Shown here: piece by piece, positions 51,178 to 64,000 of the stretch
How the letters are laid out: each line of letters begins with the position of its first letter
Numbering within the stretch: position 1 is the stretch's first letter
From: Rhodoferax sp.
GTDB lineage: Bacteria; Pseudomonadota; Gammaproteobacteria; Burkholderiales; Burkholderiaceae_C
DNA length: 64,000 nucleotides
Assembly (NCBI RefSeq): GCF_028689295.1
Contig: NZ_JAQTWL010000003.1
Coordinates: forward strand, 184,104 to 248,103
Direction: 5' to 3'
The notes under the pieces: model-generated
What the model was told of the DNA's origin: nothing
What the model saw: only the letters and a program-made list of their open reading frames with translations
Database searches by the model: none
Made by a program: the position numbers and the translations under genes

Positions 51178-53202
51178 ATGACTTCTTTTTTCCACCCTGC
51201 AGCCTGGGTCCATTTGGACTGGGTATTGGTTGTGGTAGTGGCCTGGTTGCTGATTGGCGTGCTGGGTGTGCTGGCGCTGCGGCGTTTCAGGTTTGTCGCC
51301 ATCGTGCTTTTTCCCATGGGCGCATTTTTTTCGGTGCTGTTGCTGGCCGTGTCGCTGAGTGCGGTGTTCAGCGGTCCTGAAACAGCCGTCCTGCCGCTGG
51401 GCCTGCCACAACTGCCGTTCCATTTGCGGCTCGACAACCTGTCGGCTTTCTTCCTGATCCTGATCGGTGGCGTCTCGGCCGGTGTCTCCACCTTTGCCGC
51501 CGGTTACTTTCGTCAGGGCGAGGGCACGCCGCCCGGCTTGATTTGTCTGGAATACCACGTCTTTCTGGCCAGCATTGCCCTGGTGGTGATGGCCGACGAT
51601 GCCTACCTGTTCATGGTGGTCTGGGAAACCATGGCCTTGTCGTCGTTCTTTCTGGTGCTGGCCAACCACCGCATTCCCGAGATTCGCAACGCCGGCTACA
51701 TCTACATGTTGATAGCGCACATCGGCGCACTGGGCATTTTGTTGTGCTTCGGCCTGCTGCAGGCCAACACCGGCGACTACACCTTTGCCAACATGCGCCA
51801 ACAGCACCTGACGCCGTTCTGGGGCTCGGTGGCTTTCGTGCTGGCGGTGTTCGGTTTTGGCGCCAAGGCGGGTTTGCTGCCGCTGCACGTCTGGCTGCCC
51901 GAGGCGCACCCGGCAGCGCCGTCGCCGTTTTCTGCCTTGATGAGCGCTGTCATGCTCAAGATCGCCTTGTACGGCATCCTGCGCGTGAGCTTTGATCTGT
52001 TGCAGGACACGATCTGGTGGTGGGGCGTGCTGCTGATGGGCGTGGGCTTGCTGACGGCTTTGTTCGGCGTGGTGTTCTCGACCGTGCAGGTGGAAATGAA
52101 GCGCCTGCTGGCCTACTCAAGCATCGAGAACATCGGCCTGATCTGCGCCGGCTTTGGCCTGTCGCTGCTGTTTCTGGCCTATGACATGAAAGCCCTGTCG
52201 GCGCTGGCGCTGACCGCCGCCATGTACCACATGCTGGCTCATGCCTTTTTCAAGAGCCTGTTGTTTTGCAGCACCGGCGCCGTGATGCATGCCACCGGCG
52301 AGCGCAGTCTGGGCAAACTCGGTGGCCTGATGCGCTACATGCCCTGGGTGGCCTGGCCAACGCTGGTGGGTGCGCTGGCCTGCGCCGGCCTGCCACCGTT
52401 TGGCGGCTTTGTGGCCGAATGGCTGCTGCTGCAGAGTTTCCTGTTCACGACCGGCCTGCCAAGCTCTTTCCTCGACATGCTGGTGCCGGTGATGGCGGCG
52501 CTGATTGCGCTGATCGCGGCGCTCTCGGGCTACACCATGGTCAAGTATTTTGGCGTGATTTTTCTGGGCCAGCCGCGCGAGGAAAACCTGTCACGCGCGC
52601 ATGATGCCGGCCCCTGGGAGCGCATGGGCATGATGTGGCTGGTGATGGGTTGCGTCGTGCTGGGCTTGTTTCCGAACCAGATCATTTCACTGATCGACCC
52701 CACCACCCAGCTGCTGGTGGGCGCCGGTCTGGCGCATACCCTGGCCGACAGTGGCTGGCTGTTGGTACCGGTGAGCGTGGAACGTGCCAGCTATGCACCG
52801 GCCATCTTTTTGCTGGGTGTGTTGGCCAGCTTTGGATTGGCATTTTTTCTGGTGCGCAAGCTCTACCATGGGCGCATGCGCCGGGTACCGCCGTGGGATT
52901 GTGGATATCCGTGGCAAACCCCGCGCATGCAGGACACCGCCGAGGGCTTTGGCCAACCGATCCGGCAGATCTTCGAACCATTTTTCCGCATCAAGCGGCA
53001 GCTCCCGACCGCTTTTGATGCGCAGCCCGGCTACAAGGTCACACTGGAAGATCCCCTTTGGTATTGGCTTTATTTGCCGGTCGCCCGACTGGTTGAGCGG
53101 GTCTCCAAAATTGTCGGCTTGCTGCAGCAGGGGCGCATTGCGGTTTATCTGATGTACAGCTTTGTCACCCTGATTGTGGTCTTGCTGGCGGTGAAGCGAT
53201 GA
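51178..53202 (+). CDS. hyfB: hydrogenase-4 subunit B-like (antiporter-type proton-translocating subunit)
   Basis: MrpD/NuoL-type TM protein; LPLHVWLPEAHPAAPSPFSALMSAVMLKIALYGILR. Confidence 0.9.
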   Translation: MTSFFHPAAWVHLDWVLVVVVAWLLIGVLGVLALRRFRFVAIVLFPMGAFFSVLLLAVSLSAVFSGPETAVLPLGLPQLPFHLRLDNLSAFFLILIGGVSAGVSTFAAGYFRQGEGTPPGLICLEYHVFLASIALVVMADDAYLFMVVWETMALSSFFLVLANHRIPEIRNAGYIYMLIAHIGALGILLCFGLLQANTGDYTFANMRQQHLTPFWGSVAFVLAVFGFGAKAGLLPLHVWLPEAHPAAPSPFSALMSAVMLKIALYGILRVSFDLLQDTIWWWGVLLMGVGLLTALFGVVFSTVQVEMKRLLAYSSIENIGLICAGFGLSLLFLAYDMKALSALALTAAMYHMLAHAFFKSLLFCSTGAVMHATGERSLGKLGGLMRYMPWVAWPTLVGALACAGLPPFGGFVAEWLLLQSFLFTTGLPSSFLDMLVPVMAALIALIAALSGYTMVKYFGVIFLGQPREENLSRAHDAGPWERMGMMWLVMGCVVLGLFPNQIISLIDPTTQLLVGAGLAHTLADSGWLLVPVSVERASYAPAIFLLGVLASFGLAFFLVRKLYHGRMRRVPPWDCGYPWQTPRMQDTAEGFGQPIRQIFEPFFRIKRQLPTAFDAQPGYKVTLEDPLWYWLYLPVARLVERVSKIVGLLQQGRIAVYLMYSFVTLIVVLLAVKR

Positions 53203-54149
53203 GCTGGCTCGGCGCACTCTCGCAATTGCTGGCGCTGGTCATGGCGCTGCTGCTGGCCCCGTTGCTCACGGGTTGGGTCAACCAGTGGCGCGCGCGGCTG
53301 CAAAACAAGTCGGCGCCGGGCTTGCTGCAGCCCTACCGCATGTTGCACAAGCTGTTCAACAAGGAATCGGTGATGGCTGATCGCGCCACATCCTTGTACC
53401 GCACGGCACCCTACATTATTTTCAGTTGCATGCTGCTGGCGTGCGCCATCATCCCCACGCTCTCCACCGATTTGCCCCTGTCACCAGCGGCCGATGCGAT
53501 TGCGCTGGTGGGTTTGTTTGCGCTGGCGCGTGTCTTTATTTCACTGGCCGCCATGGATGTGGGCACTGCTTTCGGGTCGCTCGGCGCACGCCGGGAAATG
53601 CTGGTCGGGTTTTTGGCTGAACCAGCCTTGCTGATGGTGCTCTTTTGCGCCTCCATGATCACCCGCTCGACCTCGCTCACCGCCATTGTGGAAACGCTGG
53701 CCCACCGCGAATTTGCCATCTACCCCAGTCTGCTGCTGGCCGGGGTGGCGTTCACCATGGTGTCTCTGGCCGAAAACGCCCGCGTGCCGGTGGACAACCC
53801 CGACACCCACCTGGAACTCACCATGATCCACGAATCGATGATTCTGGAGTATTCGGCACGCCATCTGGCGCTGCTGGAGTGGGCCGCCAGCCTCAAGCTG
53901 TTCGCCTATTCCTGCGCTGGCCTCGCCATCTTTTTCCCATGGGGTGTGGCCGAGGCTCATTCGCCGCTGGCCCTGCTGCTGGCCTTGCCGGTGCTGCTGG
54001 TCAAGCTGGCCGTTGGCGGCTTTTTGATGGCCCTGATTGAGACCCTGAGTGCCAAGATGCGCATCTTCCGGGTGCCCGAATTTCTGGGCACTGCCTTTTT
54101 GCTGGCCGTGCTGGGTCTGCTGGTCAATATATTGCTGGGGGTCGGATGA
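53199..54149 (+). CDS. hyfC: hydrogenase-4 subunit C-like (NuoH-type membrane subunit)
   Basis: ENARVPVDNPDTHLELTMIHESMILEYSARHLALLEWAASLK; operon position. Confidence 0.92.
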   Translation: MSWLGALSQLLALVMALLLAPLLTGWVNQWRARLQNKSAPGLLQPYRMLHKLFNKESVMADRATSLYRTAPYIIFSCMLLACAIIPTLSTDLPLSPAADAIALVGLFALARVFISLAAMDVGTAFGSLGARREMLVGFLAEPALLMVLFCASMITRSTSLTAIVETLAHREFAIYPSLLLAGVAFTMVSLAENARVPVDNPDTHLELTMIHESMILEYSARHLALLEWAASLKLFAYSCAGLAIFFPWGVAEAHSPLALLLALPVLLVKLAVGGFLMALIETLSAKMRIFRVPEFLGTAFLLAVLGLLVNILLGVG

Positions 54150-54808
54150 TCGCCAAGTTTGCCCCGCAACTGATCAACCTGTTTGCCACGCTGATTTTGC
54201 TGCTGTCATTTGCCATGATTTCGCAGCGCCGCATTGGCACGCTGATCAACCTGTTCATGATCCAGGGCGCAGCGCTGGTGGCGGCCTCGTTTTTGCTGGG
54301 TTACGTCACCAGGCAGCCTGACTTGTACATTTCCGGCTGGTTGACGCTGGTGCTCAAGGTGATTTTTATTCCCTGGATGCTGCACCGGGTGATTCGCAAA
54401 CTCAATGTGCGCTGGGACGTGGAGACGCTGCTCAATGTGCCGACCACCATGCTGGTTGGCATCGGCCTGGTGATCCTGGCGTTCAGCTTGGCGCTGCCAG
54501 TGTCGCGGCTGTCGAGTTCTCTGGCCGGGGGCTCGCTCGGCATTGCGCTGGCCTGCATTTTGTTGTCGTTCATGATGATGATCACGCGCTCCAAGGCGGT
54601 GCCGCAGGTGATCGGCTTCCTGTCGATGGAAAACGGCCTGATCTTTGCCGCCACCGCGGTCACCAACGGCATGCCGATGATCGTGGAGTTTGGCGTGGCG
54701 CTCGACGTCCTGGTGGGGGTGTTGATATTGGGTGTGTTCATGTTTCAGATTCGCGAGAAATTCGACACGCTGGACATCCATAACCTTGAATCCCTCAAGG
54801 AAGACTGA
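54146..54808 (+). CDS. hyfE: hydrogenase-4 subunit E-like (NuoK-type)
   Basis: Short multi-TM protein between hyfC and hyfF; C-terminal IREKFDTLDIHNLESLKED. Confidence 0.88.
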   Translation: MIAKFAPQLINLFATLILLLSFAMISQRRIGTLINLFMIQGAALVAASFLLGYVTRQPDLYISGWLTLVLKVIFIPWMLHRVIRKLNVRWDVETLLNVPTTMLVGIGLVILAFSLALPVSRLSSSLAGGSLGIALACILLSFMMMITRSKAVPQVIGFLSMENGLIFAATAVTNGMPMIVEFGVALDVLVGVLILGVFMFQIREKFDTLDIHNLESLKED

Positions 54809-54810
54809 GC

Positions 54811-56265
54811 ATGCACGCCCTTTATTTTGTCCTGGGAGTTCCGTTGCTGGGCGGCATGGCGCTAGCCCTGACGGGTCACCGTGGCTACGCCCGGGATGTC
54901 AACGTGGCCTTCAGCCTGCTGACTTTTCTGGCTTCCTGCGTGCTCACCGCCCAGGTCATCAACAACGGGCCGCAACTGCTCTTGCACGACCAGTTTTACA
55001 TTGACCCGCTCAACGTTTTCCTGGTCACGCTCACTGCTTTTGTCAGCCTGACCACGGCCATTTTTTCGCGCCCCTACATGCGCATCGAGCAGGACCACGG
55101 CAAGATGACGCCGCCGCGCATGCGCCTTTACCACAGCATGTACCAACTGTTCAGTTTCACCATGCTGCTGGGCTTTACCACCAACAACTTGGGGATCATC
55201 TGGGTCGCCATGGAAGCCGCAACGCTGACCACTGTGCTGCTGGTCAGCGTTTACCGCACCACCGCCAGCCTGGAGGCCGCCTGGAAGTATTTCATTTTGT
55301 GCGGGGTCGGCATTGCGCAGGCGCTGTTTGGCACCATCTTGCTGTACATGGCGGCCGAAAAAGTGCTCGGCCCCGAGCACGCCACGCTGCTGTGGACCAG
55401 CCTCAACGACATCAAGGGCCAGCTCGACCCCACCATCATCACGCTGGCCTTTGTCTTCTTGCTGATCGGCTACGGCACCAAGATCGGCATGGTGCCGCTG
55501 CATAGTTGGCTGCCCGACGCCCATGCCGAAGGCCCGACGCCGGTGTCGGCGGTGCTCTCCGGGCTGCTGCTCAATGTGGCCATGTACGCCGTGCTGCGCT
55601 GCAAAGTGCTCACCGACGGCGCACTCGACAGCAATATGGCGGGCCAGTTGATGATGGGCTTTGGCTTGCTGTCGGTCACGGTGGCGGCGTTCTTTTTGTC
55701 GCGGCAAAAAGACGTCAAACGCATGTTTTCGTACTCGTCGATCGAGCACATGGGGTTGATCACCTTTGCCTTCGGCATGGGCGGGCCGGTGGCCAACTTT
55801 GCCGGGCTGCTGCACATGACGGTGCACTCGCTGGTCAAGTCTGCCATTTTCTTCACGGTGGGGCATGCCACGCAAAAAGCCGGAACCCAGGTGATGAGCG
55901 AGATTCGCGGTCTGATCAAGGTGAACCCGACGGTGGGATGGGGTTTGATGATGGGTGTGATGGCCATTCTGGGGATGCCACCGTTTGGGGTCTTTGCCAG
56001 CGAGTTCCTGATTCTGACCACCGCCATGCGCGAGCAACCCTGGGCCGCGCCATTTTTGTTTTTGGCGCTCGGTATCGCCTTTGCCTCCATCTTGATCCGG
56101 GTCCTGCCCATGGTGTTTGGCGACACCACCCTGAAGCCGCTGGCGCATCCGCCGGCGCTGATCCCGGTGTTTGTGCACCTGGCGCTGGCGCTGGTGCTGG
56201 GCCTGTTCATTCCGCCCTATTTGAACGGCTGGTACGTGCAGGCGGCCAGCATGCTGGGAGGCTAA
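54811..56265 (+). CDS. hyfF: hydrogenase-4 subunit F-like (antiporter-type subunit)
   Basis: GTKIGMVPLHSWLPDAHAEGPTPVSAVLSGLLLNVAMYAVLR; FSYSSIEHMGLITFAFG. Confidence 0.93.
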   Translation: MHALYFVLGVPLLGGMALALTGHRGYARDVNVAFSLLTFLASCVLTAQVINNGPQLLLHDQFYIDPLNVFLVTLTAFVSLTTAIFSRPYMRIEQDHGKMTPPRMRLYHSMYQLFSFTMLLGFTTNNLGIIWVAMEAATLTTVLLVSVYRTTASLEAAWKYFILCGVGIAQALFGTILLYMAAEKVLGPEHATLLWTSLNDIKGQLDPTIITLAFVFLLIGYGTKIGMVPLHSWLPDAHAEGPTPVSAVLSGLLLNVAMYAVLRCKVLTDGALDSNMAGQLMMGFGLLSVTVAAFFLSRQKDVKRMFSYSSIEHMGLITFAFGMGGPVANFAGLLHMTVHSLVKSAIFFTVGHATQKAGTQVMSEIRGLIKVNPTVGWGLMMGVMAILGMPPFGVFASEFLILTTAMREQPWAAPFLFLALGIAFASILIRVLPMVFGDTTLKPLAHPPALIPVFVHLALALVLGLFIPPYLNGWYVQAASMLGG

Positions 56266-56269
56266 GGGC

Positions 56270-57865
56270 ATGCGAATCCCCGGACTTGATCTTGAGTTTG
56301 ATGCGCTGCCCGCGCCGGTGCCGATCTGGCACGCGCAGGTGACGACCGAGCAGTGGCAGTCGGCCGCGACAGCTGTGCGCGACGAGGGCGGGCGTTTGCT
56401 GGCGTTGTGGGCCGGACCGATCGGTGATGGCAAAAGCACCGCCGGCGTGGCACGCGAACCCGCTTTCATGTGCGCCGCTTACGTCACGCTCGAAGGCACG
56501 TTCTGGTTGTCGCTGCCGCTGGCACCGCTGGCGCAAATCGGGCGTCAATTGGTTTATCCGGACCTGGCCACGGTGTTCCCGGCGGCAGGGCGCATGCAGC
56601 GCGCCGCCGCTGATTTGTCGGGTGTGCACGCGCAGGGCGCCCAGGACCTGCGCCCGTGGCTCAACCATGGCGCTTGGCCCGCCGACCATTACCCGCTGCA
56701 GCAAGACCCCGACAAGTTGACGCTGGTGGAAGCCACCGAACTCGTCAACTACCCCTTTGTGCATGTGGATGGCGACGGCGTGCACGAGATTGCCGTCGGC
56801 CCGGTGCACGCCGGCATCATCGAACCCGGCCATTTCCGCTTCAGCGTCGTGGGTGAAAAAGTGTTGCGGCTAGAGCAGCGCCTGGGCTACACGCACAAAG
56901 GCACCGAGCAACGCATGACGCAATTGGCGCCGCTGCAAGCCTCTCGGCTGGCGGGCCGGGTCTCGGGCGATACCACCGTGGCCTACGCCTGGGCGTATTG
57001 CATGGCGCTTGAATCCGCCTGTCAAACCACTGTTCCCGAGCGCGCCGCCTGGCTGCGCGCGCTGATGCTGGAGCGTGAACGCATCGCCAATCATCTGGGC
57101 GACCTGGGGGCTCTGGGCAACGACGCCGCCTTTGCCTTTGGCCTGGCACAGTTTTCCCGCCTGCGTGAAGACTGGCTGCGTGCTTCCGGAGTGGTCTTCG
57201 GCCACCGCCTGATGATGGACTGCATCGTGCCCGGTGGCGTCAAAAGCGACATCGACCGCGCCCAGTGCGACCTGCTGGTGCAGCAGTGCGATGCCGTGGA
57301 GCAGGAAGTGCGCACCCTGTTCACCATTTACGAAGCCCACGCCGGCCTGCAAGACCGTTTCATGACCACCGGCCGGGTCACGCCGGCGCTGGCCTCGCGT
57401 CTGGGCTTGACGGGGCTGGCCGGGCGCGCCAGCAGCCAGGCCTGGGACCTGCGCTGCGACCACCCATGGCCGCCTTACAGCGGCATGGACGTCGCCATGG
57501 CCACCCACCACAACGGCGATGTGGCGGCGCGCGTGGCAGTTCGATTTGATGAGGTGTTCGAGTCGATGCGCTTGATCCGGCGCACGCTCGATGAAATGCC
57601 TGCGGGCGAGGTGTCGTGCCCGGTGCAATTACCGCAGCAGCCAGCGCGCGGCGCCGGATGGGTCGAGGGTTGGCGTGGCGAACTGTTTGTGGCGCTGGAA
57701 TTGGCTGGCGCCGATCAGGCCAACCGCATCCGGCGCTGCCATTTGCACGACCCGTCGTGGCAAAACTGGCCGGTGCTGGAGCACGCCATCATGGGCAACA
57801 TCGTGCCCGACTTTCCGCTCATCAACAAGTCTTTCAACTTGAGTTACTCGGGGCAAGACCTATGA
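56270..57865 (+). CDS. NuoC-NuoD/HyfG-type fused large subunit lacking NiFe cysteine motifs (Ehr-type)
   Basis: N-terminal NuoC-like and C-terminal NiFe/NuoD-like regions; RVSGDTT where hydrogenases have RxCGxC, SFNLSYSGQDL where they have DPCxxC. Confidence 0.85.
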   Translation: MRIPGLDLEFDALPAPVPIWHAQVTTEQWQSAATAVRDEGGRLLALWAGPIGDGKSTAGVAREPAFMCAAYVTLEGTFWLSLPLAPLAQIGRQLVYPDLATVFPAAGRMQRAAADLSGVHAQGAQDLRPWLNHGAWPADHYPLQQDPDKLTLVEATELVNYPFVHVDGDGVHEIAVGPVHAGIIEPGHFRFSVVGEKVLRLEQRLGYTHKGTEQRMTQLAPLQASRLAGRVSGDTTVAYAWAYCMALESACQTTVPERAAWLRALMLERERIANHLGDLGALGNDAAFAFGLAQFSRLREDWLRASGVVFGHRLMMDCIVPGGVKSDIDRAQCDLLVQQCDAVEQEVRTLFTIYEAHAGLQDRFMTTGRVTPALASRLGLTGLAGRASSQAWDLRCDHPWPPYSGMDVAMATHHNGDVAARVAVRFDEVFESMRLIRRTLDEMPAGEVSCPVQLPQQPARGAGWVEGWRGELFVALELAGADQANRIRRCHLHDPSWQNWPVLEHAIMGNIVPDFPLINKSFNLSYSGQDL

Positions 57866-58410
57866 TCTGGAAAGTGGTCAAGCAAATCGCCAAGACCGGC
57901 ATTCGCACCGAAGCCGCACCCGACATCGGCGCAGACGAAGCCGCCCAAGCCGCGCGCATCCAGCGTGAATTGCTCGACATTCTGGGCCAAGCCCTGACCA
58001 TCCGCGAAGTCGATGCGGGCTCATGCAACGGCTGCGAGCTTGAAATCAATGCGTTGGGCAACCCCTATTACAACCTCGAAGGCCTGGGCATCAAGTTTGT
58101 CGCCAGCCCGCGCCACGCCGACCTGCTGCTGGTGACCGGGCCGGTGTCCTGCAACATGGAAACCGCATTGAGACGCACCTACGAGGCCACGCCCGGGCCC
58201 AAACTGGTGGTGGCCGTGGGCGACTGCGCCTGCGACGGCGGCATGTTTGGCGAGAGCTATGCCACCTGCGGCCGCGTCGCCAACGTGATTCCGGTCGATG
58301 AAGTCATTCCCGGCTGCCCGCCACCGCCGCTGGACATCTTGCGCGGCATTTTGAAGGCGGTGCGGCGGCGCGTTGCGCAGCCGCCCGGCGCTGCCAAGTT
58401 GCGGCTTTGA
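57862..58410 (+). CDS. hyfI: HyfI/NuoB-type small subunit with retained [4Fe-4S] ligands
   Basis: DAGSCNGCELEINAL, VGDCACDGGMFGESYATCG, VIPGCPPPPLDILRGIL. Confidence 0.9.
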   Translation: MIWKVVKQIAKTGIRTEAAPDIGADEAAQAARIQRELLDILGQALTIREVDAGSCNGCELEINALGNPYYNLEGLGIKFVASPRHADLLLVTGPVSCNMETALRRTYEATPGPKLVVAVGDCACDGGMFGESYATCGRVANVIPVDEVIPGCPPPPLDILRGILKAVRRRVAQPPGAAKLRL

Positions 58411-58807
58411 TCGCCCGAATGGAATGTATTCGGCGCGTGCTGCCGAGATTTACCTGAAATCGAATACGAGTGCAAAAATTCGTGTGGGCTGGCGTCTTCA
58501 GGTATGCAGCGATTGCAGCCTGTCACCTGAAAATCAGGTGCACCCGGTCTGGGCCAGTTCCAGTCGCTCGCGAATGACAGCTCTCAGCACATGAATTTTG
58601 CGCCACTGCTGGCTCAGGTTTTTGCGAATGAATTTCCATTACAGGCTGAAAACATACGATGGCAGGTGATCTGACGAGCGGCGACCATCGACCCTTTGCT
58701 GCCCTCCGATCGCTAAACGGGAACGTTCGTATCCAGTCTGAATTGAGCGTAGCGGGCACTAGAGCTGCCGATAGCGAATGAATAAATTCAGCCTATCGCC
58801 TGAGTTA

Positions 58808-58835: not shown

Positions 58836-58967
58836 TTATTCATCTTTCTTATGCTTGTGCGGCTTGAGAGAAGGCGTATTGCCGGGCGTTTCCTTGTTGT
58901 CACGGCGACGCTTATCCGGCTTTCCTGTTGACTTTGCGATGGGTTTGGGCCCAGGTTTGATAGCCAT
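58836..58967 (-). CDS. 43-aa highly basic small protein
   Basis: Hand-translated MAIKPGPKPIAKSTGKPDKRRRDNKETPGNTPSLKPHKHKKDE; AAGGAG Shine-Dalgarno 7 nt before ATG; stem-loop right after stop; absent from the ORF track. Confidence 0.7.
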   Translation of the reverse strand: MAIKPGPKPIAKSTGKPDKRRRDNKETPGNTPSLKPHKHKKDE

Positions 58968-59067
58968 ACTTGCACTCCTTCAAACAAAAGTGTTACTCAG
59001 ACTTGCTGATCTATTCAGCCAAGTAGTCCGCCCGACGCTGGTTGGCTCCAGCGCTAAGCACAATTAT

Positions 59068-59097
59068 ATTGTATTGTGTAGCGCTACGCAATACAAT
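59068..59097 (+). promoter_or_regulatory. putative autoregulatory operator/promoter of the 1372-aa gene
   Basis: ATTGTATTGTGTAGCGCTACGCAATACAAT: 15-bp half-sites with one mismatched pair; -35 TTGTAT (59069-59074), 17-bp spacer, -10 TACAAT (59092-59097) lie inside it. Confidence 0.7.
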
Positions 59098-59141
59098 TGG
59101 TGAGATCGGCCCACAGGCAACAATGAGTCATTTAAAAGCAT

Positions 59142-62100
59142 ATGGACATGAGCGAAGTCCGCCATCCTGGCGAACGTATCAAGGCAGAGATTTTCCCGGC
59201 GAAGATGTCCGTGACAAAAGCCGCCGAGCTGATTGGCGTCGGACGTCCAGCTCTTTCCAACCTGATTAACGGGAAAGCGTCTCTCACTGCCGACATGGCT
59301 ACCCGCATCGAGAAGGCATTCGGGTTCCCCAGGAAGGATCTGCTCGAAATGCAGGCGCAGTACGACGCCTTCAAGGCTAAGCAGAAGAGCGTCCCCACGA
59401 ACGCAAAAGCCTACGTCCCCCCGTTCCTGGCAATCAAGGCCAACGACATAGAGAGCTGGGCTTCGCACAACATCGCCGCTCGCAGCAGGTTCGCTGTATT
59501 CCTGAGGACCTTGGTCCATTCGACAGGTAGCGGACTCACGGAAGTTGATTTCCCGGGTAACGATGACTCCCAGCGCGCCGGTTGGGACGGCCGTGTCGTG
59601 GCGAGCGAGGGAACCCCATGGGTGCCGGCAGGCCGCTCGGGCTGGGAGTTCGGCACCAACGAGGATCCCAAGACGAAGGCGGACAAGGATTACAAGAAAA
59701 GCGTAACTGCGACTGATGCAAACGACAGGGCATCAATGGAGTTCGTTTTCGTCACTCCCCGCAGATGGGCCGGCAAAAGCACATGGGTGACCGAAAAGAA
59801 GGCTGAGAGTTCCTGGGTGGACGTTCGGGCCTATGACTCCAGCGACCTGGAGCAGTGGGTGGAACAGTCGCTGCCCGGGCAGGCGTGGTTTGCCAACGAG
59901 ACAGGCATTCCTGCGCAGGACGTCCGCTCGCTAGATAAGTGCTGGGCAGACTGGGCGAACGTGGCGACTCCGCCGCTACCCGGCTCGCTGTTCAGTTCGG
60001 CCATCGAGGAAGCGAAGCGGAAGCTCGCCTCGCGTCTCGCGAAGCCGCCCACGGGGCCAATCGTGGTCGCAGCAGATTCCACTGACGAAGCGCTGGCCTT
60101 CGTGGCTCAGTGCTTTGGTCCTGAAGGGAGTGCAGAGCTGGAACCCTACCGGTACCGGATCCTGGTTTTCGACAAAACTGGTGTATTGCCGAAATTGGCA
60201 GGCGGGACGAGGCCGTTCATTTCCGTCGTGCACTCGCGCGAAGTCGAAGTTGAACTCGCGCCGTACACGGAACAGATGCACTCCATCGTCGTGTACCCGA
60301 GGAACTCGGTCAACTCGGAGCCGGACATTGTTCTCGAGCCGATCAGTTTCGAAGCGTTCGACTCCGCACTCAAAGGCATCGGCAAGAACCGGGATGAGAT
60401 CAAGAGCCTGGTAAACGAGTCGGGGCGCTCGCTGACTGTCCTGCGCCGCAGGCTCGCGACCGTCGAGGCGGTGCGAATGCCGCTTTGGGCAACGCAGCAA
60501 CATGCCCCGGAAAATCTAATCGCCTTCATGCTGGTAGGTGCCTGGCACTCGCTCAACGAAACCGACAAGGTCGGCCTATCCCTGCTGGCAGGTGACCGCG
60601 CGTATGAAGCACTGGAAAAGGACTGCCAAGCCCTGGTTCAACTGAACGACTCGCCGCTCTGGTCCATCGGGACGTATCGCGGGGTCGTCTCGAAGATAGA
60701 TCTGCTCTACGCCATCGCCCGCTACGTGACCCGCGATGACCTGAAGCGGTACTTCGATGTCGCGCGGATGGTGCTAGGCGAGGACGACCCATCCCTGGAT
60801 CTCGCCGAAGACCAGCGATGGGCAGCATCCATCCATGGAAAAACACGGGAATTCTCTTCTGCGTTCCGCCAAGGTATTTCGGAAACGCTCGTACTCCTGG
60901 CCGTTCACGGCGTGGGCCTTTTCAAGGCACGCCTGGGGATAGACACGGAAGTCCATGCAGCTCTGGTAGTGTGCGACCTACTTAAGGATCCCCTCACCAC
61001 GCGCGTGCTCGAAGCCAACGACCACGACCTGCGTCTCTACGCCGAAGCGGCGCCGACCGAGTTCCTCTCGATCATCGAGCGCGACCTGAAGGCAGACAGC
61101 CCTGCAGTTTTCGGCCTACTTCGCCCCGCCGGATCCGGCATGTTCGGCAGTCCCAGTCGCACCGGACTGCTCTGGGCGCTGGAAGGGCTCGCATGGAGTC
61201 CGGAGACGCTTCCTCGTACGGTGATGATCCTCGCTCGTCTGGCGCAGATCGAGATCAACGATAACTGGGTGAACAAGCCAGGGCATTCGCTAGCAGCAAT
61301 ATTCCGATCCTGGATGCCCCAGACCGCAGCCAACAATGAGGAACGCGTGGCTCTGGTGAAAGTCTTGTTCGACAGGTTCCCGGACGTCGCCTGGACGCTT
61401 TGCGTCGCGCAGTTCGGCAATCACCACCAAGTCGGAGACTATAGCCACAAGCCGACGTGGCGCCCGGACGGATATGGGTACGGTGAGCCGGTCCCGACAT
61501 GGGGACCGATTTTCGAATTCGCGGACAAGATGATCGAGCTGGCCTTATCCCGGGCGCGCTACTCGGTCTCGATGCTGTCTGACCTGATTGACCGCCTCCA
61601 TGATCTGACGGACGCCAACCAGGACCGCGTTTGGTCACTGGTCGAGGCATGGGCAAAGACCGCCAGCGACGACGACAAGATTGCGTTACGCGAGAAGATC
61701 CGAGTCTCGACGCTATCCCGCCTCGCAGCCCTGCGTGCGAAGAAAAGCGGGAAGCAATCCCGCGTAACAGCCGCAGCCAAGCACATCTATACCGCGCTTG
61801 AACCGAGCAGCCTCCTCGACAAGCACGCGTGGCTGTTCAAGGGCACGTGGATCGACGAGTCAGCCGACGAGCTCGAAGATATCGAGAATATTGACTACGA
61901 AGAGCGCGATAAGCGAATCCGCAAACAGCGGACCGATGCGCTGAAAGAAATTCAAGGAAAGCATGGCATCGCTGGCTTGCTCGACACGGCAATCCGCAGC
62001 GGAGCATCGGGAACCATCGGCGCCCTTGCGGCTGAGCGTGTGCTGGACGAGGCGGAATTGCTCGCGCTCGTAATCCTCGCCTTCCAGAAAATGAGCGAGA

Positions 62101-63260
62101 ACGAGCCTGAAGCCCGTGCGTTGGAATGGCTGATTCAAGGCATTCTAGGAGTGATGCCCGGCGACCAGAAACGTGAAGCATTCCTAAAGTCTGCCATTAC
62201 CGCGATAGGTCCCGAGAGCGCGGTCCGCCTTCTGACGCTCGCGCCCTTCGGCGAAACCGCTTGGTCGCTGGTCTCCTCGTACGGAGAGGGCGTTGAAACG
62301 CGGTACTGGAAGGAGGTCGTTCCCGGCTGGCTGCGGGACTCCCCTGCGGAGATGGCGAAGGCGGTCGATATGCTCATGAAGGCCCGGCGACCGCGCGCAG
62401 CGTTCGCGCTCGTCAAGGATCACCCCGAAAAGCTGTCGGTCCGCACACTATTCCAACTTCTTACTGTCATGGCGCAGGACGGCGACGACAAGGTGGGCGA
62501 ATACCTGCTCGAACACTACTACGTCGAAAGGGCTTTCGAATGCATCAACAGGACCTCCGAACTGTCGCTCGAACAGAAGGCCGGCCTCGAATTCGCGTAC
62601 CTAGAGGTGCTTGACCGCGCATGGGACCGACGTGCTAAGTCCGCAATCCCGAACCTCGAGCGCTACATCGAGGACCACCCTGAAGTGCTGGTCCAAGCCA
62701 TCGTCTGGACATACAAGCGCAAAGACCGAGCGGAAGATCCTCCAGAATTCAAGGCGGAAGCAGAAAAGGGCAAACCCATGGCTGAACGGGGATTCAAGCT
62801 CATACAGGCGCTGAAAAGGATTCCCGGAAGCGACGAAAACGGGAGAGTTGACGTCGAGCGTCTAGCGAAGTGGACCGGAACCGTACGTAAGTCCTGCGCC
62901 GAGCTGTCGCGCATCGGAATCGCCGATGTTGTCATCGGAGAACTGTTTGCTTCAGCGCAAATCGGCAAGGACGGCGCCTGGCCTTGTGAAGCGGTGAGGA
63001 GTGTGATGGAAGATATCCAGTCCGAGGAAATGATGCGCGGAGCGCATACTGGCGTGTACAACTCGCGAGGGGTACATACGAGAGGTCCTGGCGGGGATCA
63101 GGAGCGCCAACTGGCCAACAAGTACAGAAAGTGGGCGCAGCAGATCCGGATGTCGTCGCCGTACGTGGCTTCCGAACTGCTTATGAAGCTGACGGGGACC
63201 TACGAACGGGAAGCCGCCCAGGAGGATACTGAAGCGCAAATTAACCGGAGATTGCGCTAG
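59142..63260 (+). CDS. 1372-aa protein: HigA-like XRE HTH fused to putative PD-(D/E)XK-like segment and long helical (solenoid-like) region
   Basis: VRHPGERIKAEIFPAKMSVTKAAELIGVGRPALSNLINGKASLTADMATRIEKAFG is HigA-like; GWDGRVVASEGTPWVPAGRSGWEFGTNEDPKTKADKDYKK and EFVFVTPRRW suggest an REase-like fold. Confidence 0.85.
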   Translation: MDMSEVRHPGERIKAEIFPAKMSVTKAAELIGVGRPALSNLINGKASLTADMATRIEKAFGFPRKDLLEMQAQYDAFKAKQKSVPTNAKAYVPPFLAIKANDIESWASHNIAARSRFAVFLRTLVHSTGSGLTEVDFPGNDDSQRAGWDGRVVASEGTPWVPAGRSGWEFGTNEDPKTKADKDYKKSVTATDANDRASMEFVFVTPRRWAGKSTWVTEKKAESSWVDVRAYDSSDLEQWVEQSLPGQAWFANETGIPAQDVRSLDKCWADWANVATPPLPGSLFSSAIEEAKRKLASRLAKPPTGPIVVAADSTDEALAFVAQCFGPEGSAELEPYRYRILVFDKTGVLPKLAGGTRPFISVVHSREVEVELAPYTEQMHSIVVYPRNSVNSEPDIVLEPISFEAFDSALKGIGKNRDEIKSLVNESGRSLTVLRRRLATVEAVRMPLWATQQHAPENLIAFMLVGAWHSLNETDKVGLSLLAGDRAYEALEKDCQALVQLNDSPLWSIGTYRGVVSKIDLLYAIARYVTRDDLKRYFDVARMVLGEDDPSLDLAEDQRWAASIHGKTREFSSAFRQGISETLVLLAVHGVGLFKARLGIDTEVHAALVVCDLLKDPLTTRVLEANDHDLRLYAEAAPTEFLSIIERDLKADSPAVFGLLRPAGSGMFGSPSRTGLLWALEGLAWSPETLPRTVMILARLAQIEINDNWVNKPGHSLAAIFRSWMPQTAANNEERVALVKVLFDRFPDVAWTLCVAQFGNHHQVGDYSHKPTWRPDGYGYGEPVPTWGPIFEFADKMIELALSRARYSVSMLSDLIDRLHDLTDANQDRVWSLVEAWAKTASDDDKIALREKIRVSTLSRLAALRAKKSGKQSRVTAAAKHIYTALEPSSLLDKHAWLFKGTWIDESADELEDIENIDYEERDKRIRKQRTDALKEIQGKHGIAGLLDTAIRSGASGTIGALAAERVLDEAELLALVILAFQKMSENEPEARALEWLIQGILGVMPGDQKREAFLKSAITAIGPESAVRLLTLAPFGETAWSLVSSYGEGVETRYWKEVVPGWLRDSPAEMAKAVDMLMKARRPRAAFALVKDHPEKLSVRTLFQLLTVMAQDGDDKVGEYLLEHYYVERAFECINRTSELSLEQKAGLEFAYLEVLDRAWDRRAKSAIPNLERYIEDHPEVLVQAIVWTYKRKDRAEDPPEFKAEAEKGKPMAERGFKLIQALKRIPGSDENGRVDVERLAKWTGTVRKSCAELSRIGIADVVIGELFASAQIGKDGAWPCEAVRSVMEDIQSEEMMRGAHTGVYNSRGVHTRGPGGDQERQLANKYRKWAQQIRMSSPYVASELLMKLTGTYEREAAQEDTEAQINRRLR

Positions 63261-63370
63261 CTGACTGCAGGGCGAGGGCTGAGCGCAGCGAAGAGGTGAT
63301 CGCCTGACCAATGCCCGCAGAAGTTCATGATCAAATCAGCACGATGCACTAGAAGCGGTTAATGCAGACC

Positions 63371-63484
63371 GGCGGCATTGGGATGCGAATCGCTGTCGGG
63401 GTTCAAATGCGAATACTTGGCTGTTTTTCTATGCCAATGTCTGGCGGCATTAAGCTGCTAATCGGTGGCGGTTTTCACGCTAAT
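63371..63484. repeat. four degenerate ~20-nt direct repeats, probably terminal repeats of a decayed IS
   Basis: GGCGGCATTGGGATGCGAAT (63371), GTCGGGGTTCAAATGCGAAT (63395), GGCGGCATTAAGCTGCTAAT (63443), GTGGCGGTTTTCACGCTAAT (63465). Confidence 0.5.
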
Positions 63485-63722
63485 ATTCAAGCCGGTCTGC
63501 GTGGAACTGTTAACTTGCAGAATATGTCCTTCAAGGATGCTTCTGCTGGCCGGGTTGTTTTCTATGGCTTTCGCAATGTCACCATTGATCAAGCTATTCA
63601 CGATTTAGCTCGCCACACTAACAGGCAACACCAGTGGTTTTTGGCTGAGAGCTACGAACTTTGGGCTGCTGCCGGTTTCAAAGACACTTTGTTAAGGTGG
63701 TCGATGAAACAGGAGATAGCAA

Positions 63723-63824
63723 ATGGCAAAGAGAAGGCAATTCAGCCGGGAGTTCAAGGTTGAAGCTGTAAAGCTGGTAACTGAACGCGGAGTTGGCGTC
63801 AGCCAGACGCGCCGCCACCCGTGA
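63723..63824 (+). pseudogene. truncated IS3-type transposase OrfA N-terminus
   Basis: MAKRRQFSREFKVEAVKLVTERGVGVSQ then abrupt TRRHP-stop; upstream SD AGGAG. Confidence 0.75.
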
Positions 63825-63935
63825 ACGGCCGCTTTCAGGCACTGAAACTGATCGTTTGGAATTCCGCTTTGGGTCTTGGATTCAACCGGTCGATGCAACG
63901 CCTTAAATTCTGCATGAGCAGAAGGAGTGTTGCAG

Positions 63936-64000
63936 ATGAAACAAAGACCCAGGATTTACTACTCTGATAGCCAGAAGGCTCTGATGTGGGAGCGCTGGAA
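63936..64000 (+). mobile_element. IS30-family transposase N-terminus (truncated by window end)
   Basis: MKQRPRIYYSDSQKALMWERWK matches the N-terminus of IS30-type transposases from memory. Confidence 0.65.

Follow-up and report, generated by a model that had tools for sequence, protein, structure and literature searches.

Several described systems resemble parts of the gene considered here. PD-lambda-4 (PD-Lambda-4_A in PADLOC) comes from the work of Vassallo et al. 2022 (PMC9519451). Its protein joins a restriction endonuclease (REase)-like N terminus, a STAND domain, and a long helical C terminus in a single chain, and Avs (AVAST) proteins are built in a comparable way, with an N-terminal effector, a STAND domain, and a C-terminal sensor-like solenoid. 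In GAPS6, a large helical protein is encoded beside the small GapS6a, and in HigBA, a HigA helix-turn-helix (HTH) is tied to a palindromic operator. Within a 64,000-nucleotide stretch of Rhodoferax sp. (contig NZ_JAQTWL010000003.1, positions 184,104 to 248,103; here called the window), one gene encodes a protein of 1372 amino acids (aa) that shares features with each of them. We read it, with a probability of roughly two in three, as a HigA-autoregulated, nucleotide-independent, Avs/PD-lambda-4-like sensor-nuclease that acts as a single protein against phages (or mobile elements), and thus as probably a single-protein anti-phage defense whose form has not been described before.

The open reading frame (ORF) proposed in the initial annotation, which had been made from the sequence of the window, was recovered with exactly the same length and coordinates, 59142-63260 (+), and starts with ATG. 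The overall ratio of nonsynonymous to synonymous substitution rates is ~0.13 (0.12 to 0.14 against three of four homologues, the fourth being saturated at synonymous sites), and this purifying selection marks a functional gene, far from a chance reading frame. It is one intact gene and belongs to a large, unstudied protein family. A Pfam scan of the whole protein gave no match outside the HTH (HTH_3), TIGR02607 was the sole match in an NCBIfam scan, and a sequence search of the PDB returned HTHs, with all remaining matches at chance level.

The likeness to PD-lambda-4 became visible with profiles. PADLOC reported a weak local match to PD-Lambda-4_A (PDLC03990, E 5.7e-4) for this protein and HTH matches only for seven other relatives. 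When PD-Lambda-4_A proteins were fetched from genomes and the two families were compared profile to profile with hhalign, they aligned over 918 co-linear columns covering the REase, STAND, and helical parts (probability 99.0, E 2.5e-18), and the match persisted with an alignment of divergent subfamilies (probability 98.0, E 1.7e-13). The families differ in that PD-lambda-4_A has its own intact Walker A motif, LAGLSGVGKTRF, together with FQVKK, whereas the HigA-type family has ADSTDEALAF, WEFG, and a displaced lysine; the HigA HTH and its operator belong to the HigA-type family. One PD-Lambda-4_A relative of 1573 aa (L127:538-5259) has an N-terminal XRE HTH of its own, suggesting that fusion of an HTH to REase-STAND proteins may have arisen more than once.

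An AlphaFold2 model of aa 88 to 455, built with 72 relatives, was obtained with a predicted local distance difference test (pLDDT) of 92.9 and a predicted template modeling score of 0.90. Its core consists of helices 100-109 and 113-128, strands 130-136, 150-156, and 164-170, helix 176-190, and strand 199-204, and this order of elements (helix-helix-strand-strand-strand-helix-strand) is that of a PD-(D/E)XK core, so that the model assigns aa 98 to 265 to this fold almost with certainty. In the profile alignment with PD-lambda-4_A, D149 pairs with the D of GGID and E169 with the Q of FQVKK. Where the catalytic lysine would canonically lie there is G171, a glycine in nearly all members, and K179 in the following helix could substitute as a migrated catalytic lysine; conservation of these residues (Table 1) was counted over the 90 aligned sequences with a letter at the respective position. 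Taken together, residues and model favor an active nuclease. When the same model was compared with the PDB by Foldseek, Avs4 ranked first (8dgf; E 3.4e-6, probability 1.00, 437 alignment columns) and Avs3 (8dgc) next, both matching the nuclease and STAND parts, with weaker matches to RFC clamp loaders, CED-4, and Apaf-1. Avs4 and Avs3 differ from the HigA-type protein, which has only ~10% identity to them, lacks their nucleotide-binding motif, carries another solenoid, and is putatively autoregulated by its HTH.

The missing motif concerns the STAND/AAA-like domain that follows. LAGLSGVGKTRF of PD-lambda-4_A aligns with AADSxxEALAF in the HigA-type family, and GxxxxGK[ST] is absent from region 285-345 in all 98 aligned sequences as well as in the protein itself. 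Because Walker A is absent from every member, canonical nucleotide binding is unlikely across the family, and activation without ATP is, by the sequences, the somewhat better guess. Since the protein would work in an Avs-like manner and lacks the defining ATP-binding feature, the P-loop by which oligomerization is driven in Avs, we have filed it neither as Avs nor as PD-lambda-4.

The remainder of the protein, modeled as aa 300 to 1372 (pLDDT 88.8), is predicted to continue beyond the STAND-like part as a solenoid made entirely of helices. In Foldseek, this model matched SAMD9, importin/HEAT proteins, Avs3, and Avs4 with low template modeling (TM) scores, matches that indicate a fold class only. 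SAMD9 (PDB 9zjr), the top fold match to the STAND-like and helical parts (E 1.4e-5), is a eukaryotic antiviral protein with which, at a TM-score of 0.13, only the fold class is shared. A closer relation was found by sequence, as the ~900-aa module is homologous (25% identity over 905 aa) to a 930-aa protein encoded next to GapS6a in an Escherichia coli P2-like prophage. This GapS6a, of 106 aa, was identified by the NCBIfam model NF047935 ("antiphage_GapS6a"), and the same gene pair is present on a Buttiauxella plasmid. In GAPS6, unlike here, the module is a separate protein without HTH, REase-like, or STAND-like domains. A third arrangement occurs in E. coli prophages, where the module (39% identity with the GapS6a partner) is fused to a different N terminus with GFDTDDLIV...LLGQVKHSI motifs, which we infer to be another PD-(D/E)XK nuclease. 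One such protein (WP_096935339.1, L116:9209-12757) has 1182 aa; this variant is rare, with full-length copies in only 7 of the 5426 E. coli genomes, labeled "hypothetical protein", and in the one genome viewed it lies within a prophage remnant at tRNA-Thr. The Gifsy defense protein GiPD474 was considered as a relative of these prophage proteins and rejected because it resembles ParA and has a GGVGKT motif. That a sensor-like module is combined with three different partners is a pattern typical of effector exchange in defense, and a sensor whose effectors can be swapped would be expected to occur on a different nuclease-like N terminus, as it does here. The domain plan drawn in the initial annotation, namely a HigA-type HTH, a PD-(D/E)XK-like fold in which a displaced lysine joins the D of GWDG and the E of WEFG, an NTPase-like core without the Walker A lysine, and a ~900-aa helix-rich, sensor-like region, is thus largely reproduced by the scans and models.

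At the N terminus, the HTH scores above the cut-off of TIGR02607 and also matches Pfam HTH_3. A 30-bp palindrome sits 45 bp before the ATG, overlapping a weak predicted -10 element, and the genome has no second such site when up to 3 mismatches are allowed. A site of this kind (at least 18 of 26 matches within 200 bp upstream) precedes 67 of 77 HigA-type members, compared with 1.2% of control windows, and one of 14 members classed as non-HigA, L098, whose HigA-like HTH was missed by the simple rule. Moreover, site and recognition helix vary together: proteins of the GVGRPALSN type go with TGTAT(T/C)GTGTAGCGCTACAC-type sites, and in RPG-type proteins the fifth site position is A in 14/14, as in TGTAANGTGTNNCCTTACAC, an association whose Fisher p-value takes no account of phylogeny. 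RPG together with TGTAA also occurs outside the main RPG clade, in the Nitrospira member L032, and this independent case, together with conservation across phyla, makes it very likely that the protein binds its own putative operator. Judged by these alignments, HTH and operator are a co-varying unit conserved across phyla, and operator autoregulation by the HigA HTH is highly probable. At stand-alone HigA loci of relatives the same operator was not clearly present. The genome itself encodes a stand-alone HigA (G000:C51:37416-37649, 96 bits); as the palindrome has no second genomic copy, cross-regulation with it looks unlikely. Some plasmid relatives depart from this scheme: L016, L018, and L023 form a clade with an XRE-type HTH replacing HigA, L023 matching a control-protein model, and L022 has yet another HTH; all four are without a HigA-type operator.

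In a pattern-limited scan that covered one genome per species, at least 431 loci encoding relatives were detected, and 80 of them, mostly full-length and 37 to 90% identical, were kept. Full-length homologues occur in at least 70 genomes and in more than ten phyla, and none was found among 100 other genomes drawn as relatives. Relatives covering at least 80% of the protein are on 17 plasmid records, and 17 viral contigs carry relatives; the family is represented in prophage contigs and in defense islands. Several of the plasmids are conjugative, with members adjoining par and toxin-antitoxin (TA) genes, and some relatives lie beside AbiE, RES/Xre, or SIR2 genes. On a tree of the C-terminal part, the HigA-type members cluster in a single group (local support 100%), and losses of the HTH are dispersed. 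This clade covers at least 10 phyla (Pseudomonadota, Bacillota, Planctomycetota, Acidobacteriota, Chloroflexota, Nitrospirota, Myxococcota, Verrucomicrobiota, Nitrospinota, Gemmatimonadota, Binatota, and others) and contains cross-phylum sister pairs, which argues for lateral spread; a single HTH fusion followed by such spread would be the simplest account. On a shorter scale, four other betaproteobacterial genomes (L025, L026, L027, and L054) share all or most of 59002-63374 at ~87% DNA identity, with flanks unlike those in the window, so the gene and its operator appear to move together as a unit of one gene. The closest copies, which show this pattern, are in a Rhodocyclaceae metagenome-assembled genome, Pusillimonas, Parazoarcus, and Paraburkholderia.

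For 20 loci, the 128 proteins encoded within 5 kb on either side were compared with 134 encoded far away on the same contigs. With a threshold of E 1e-10, neighbors matched 123 PADLOC models and controls 14, counted as models rather than proteins, some of them redundant. The top models of the neighbors were Olokun A/B, type I/II restriction-modification, PDC candidates, AbiD, CBASS capP, and PARIS AriA, while the models matched by controls mostly look like ordinary proteins, for example MotB. The homologues do not share a housekeeping context, and the proximity to defense genes that the initial annotation had suggested looking for is present.

If the protein is a sensor-nuclease of this kind, its HigA HTH would act on the palindrome to repress the gene's own promoter, which would hold protein levels low. 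A component of the invader would be recognized by the ~900-aa C-terminal module, and the STAND-like domain, with no P-loop nucleotide binding, would serve as a rigid relay or oligomerization hub and not as an ATP switch. Recognition would then rearrange or cluster the N-terminal PD-(D/E)XK domains, which would cut DNA via D149, E169, and K179, stopping the phage or killing the infected cell, and release from the operator upon triggering may raise expression. The defense reading rests on profile homology to PD-lambda-4_A, structural similarity to Avs4, homology to the GapS6a partner, and defense-gene neighbors, and it agrees with the logic proposed earlier, that of a self-regulated HTH joined to an effector and a sensor; a role in defense of some kind is, on sequence and model, likely.

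Some observations weigh against the sensor-nuclease reading. Pairwise BLAST against PD-lambda-4_A gave no significant match, so that the homology rests on profiles; the loss of the P-loop, as read from the alignments, removes the known Avs switch; with glycine at the canonical lysine position the fold might lack catalysis or have a different substrate; the neighborhood comparison is qualitative; and in the window the gene adjoins a respiratory operon at the end of a contig, with no visible defense island. The glycine and the missing Walker A would also suit a catalytically dead scaffold, in which the REase-like domain is inactive and the protein acts through binding or together with a partner that is unlinked, but this seems improbable given that D149, E169, and K179 are each present in 90/90 sequences and that related C termini bear a nuclease-like N terminus of another type. 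Conversely, if those active-site-like residues, invariant as they are, and the REase-like fold are taken at face value, and restriction-modification genes are noted among the neighbors, the protein might restrict DNA directly in a type IV-like manner, the C-terminal module or the HTH recognizing foreign or modified DNA and the PD-(D/E)XK domain cutting it, with no phage protein being sensed. We consider this unlikely, as the C terminus resembles STAND/HEAT-type protein-binding solenoids and the GapS6a partner, and the architecture matches that of Avs, which sense proteins such as terminase or portal.

The HTH opens two further possibilities. A HigA family domain above the curated cut-off, in a family some of whose members neighbor par and TA genes on conjugative plasmids, might indicate a module for addiction or maintenance that carries its own fused antitoxin and stabilizes plasmids and islands, HigA being the antitoxin and the remainder the toxin. 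Yet there is no free toxin-antitoxin pair, relatives exist without an HTH or with other HTH types, and the homologies to PD-lambda-4_A and the GapS6a partner point to defense, which makes this explanation very unlikely. That the protein is an ordinary transcription regulator or housekeeping protein, as the labels in public records ("HigA antitoxin" or "HTH regulator") might suggest, is hardly credible in view of an operator that occurs once in the genome, at the gene's own promoter, and of a patchy, laterally spread distribution.

The features of the locus are collected in Table 1. Directly upstream, a coherent and apparently intact complex-I/hydrogenase-4-like membrane operon occupies 53199-58410 (NADHdh, Proton_antipo_M, 49-kDa/30-kDa, and 20-kDa subunits). 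Downstream, 63724-64000 holds two IS-like (insertion sequence-like) transposase beginnings that reach the end of the contig (C69); one starts MAKRRQFSREFKVEAVKLVTERG, is IS3 OrfA-like by eye, and soon loses its frame. The gene had been described as lying among IS debris, which is correct for its downstream side, where such fragments extend to the contig end, and incorrect for its upstream side. None of the flanking ORFs of at least 60 aa is HigB-like, in line with the earlier remark that no HigB toxin adjoins the gene; compared with HigBA, the HTH is here fused to a 1300-aa effector/sensor protein. Pfam gave no match for the three adjacent ORFs that were scanned (58523-58759, 58855-59103, and 63362-63763), the last of which encodes 133 aa and begins about where the shared unit stops (63374). 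The adjacent ORFs are also unlike GapS6a by eye, the small ORFs not having been run against NF047935.

Table 1. Features of the 1372-aa gene and its surroundings (positions in the window)
Feature	Position	Strand	Basis
1372-aa single-gene protein	59142..63260	+	ORF call, homologues, codon conservation
Transferred unit (operator and gene)	59002..63374	+	blastn alignment ends
Weak sigma-70-like promoter, TTGGCT-17-TATATT	59042..59070	+	consensus scan only, 9/12 matches, 0.5 expected by chance
Putative HigA-type operator, ATTGTATTGTGTAGC/GCTACGCAATACAAT	59068..59097	+	inverted repeat, 93% complementary
HigA/XRE HTH, aa 6-81	59157..59384	+	TIGR02607, 59.6 bits (cut-off 47.7)
PD-(D/E)XK-like domain, aa 98-265	59433..59936	+	AlphaFold2, PDB fold match to Avs4, alignment with PD-lambda-4_A REase
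D149 (GWDG), putative catalytic Asp just before second core strand	59586..59588	+	90/90 aligned sequences
E169 (WEFG), putative catalytic Glu at end of third core strand	59646..59648	+	90/90 aligned sequences
K179, candidate migrated catalytic Lys in following helix	59676..59678	+	90/90 aligned sequences
STAND/AAA-like domain without Walker A, aa 290-450	60009..60491	+	predicted fold; P-loop replaced by ADSxxEALAF
Winged-helix-like segment (inferred from position in STAND proteins), aa 451-545	60492..60776	+	helix-strand pattern of model
~900-aa helical module, aa 454-1358, homologue of GapS6a-adjacent protein	60501..63215	+	25% identity over 905 aa, E 3e-62

Through shared modules, the family links Avs, PD-lambda-4, and GAPS6. 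It is tempting to speculate, though only tentatively, that it represents a nucleotide-independent Avs/NLR-like branch in which ATP switching was lost clade-wide, in more than 10 phyla, and in which HigA on its own operator, by DNA tethering and repression rather than by ADP, would silence the sensor-nuclease until the GAPS6-type arm meets its trigger. As current libraries have no label for the family other than "HigA antitoxin", "HTH regulator", or "hypothetical protein", a class of probable defense genes has been misfiled, and its members raise the question of whether a STAND-type immune receptor can work without a nucleotide and whether a transcriptional autorepressor may have replaced that switch.

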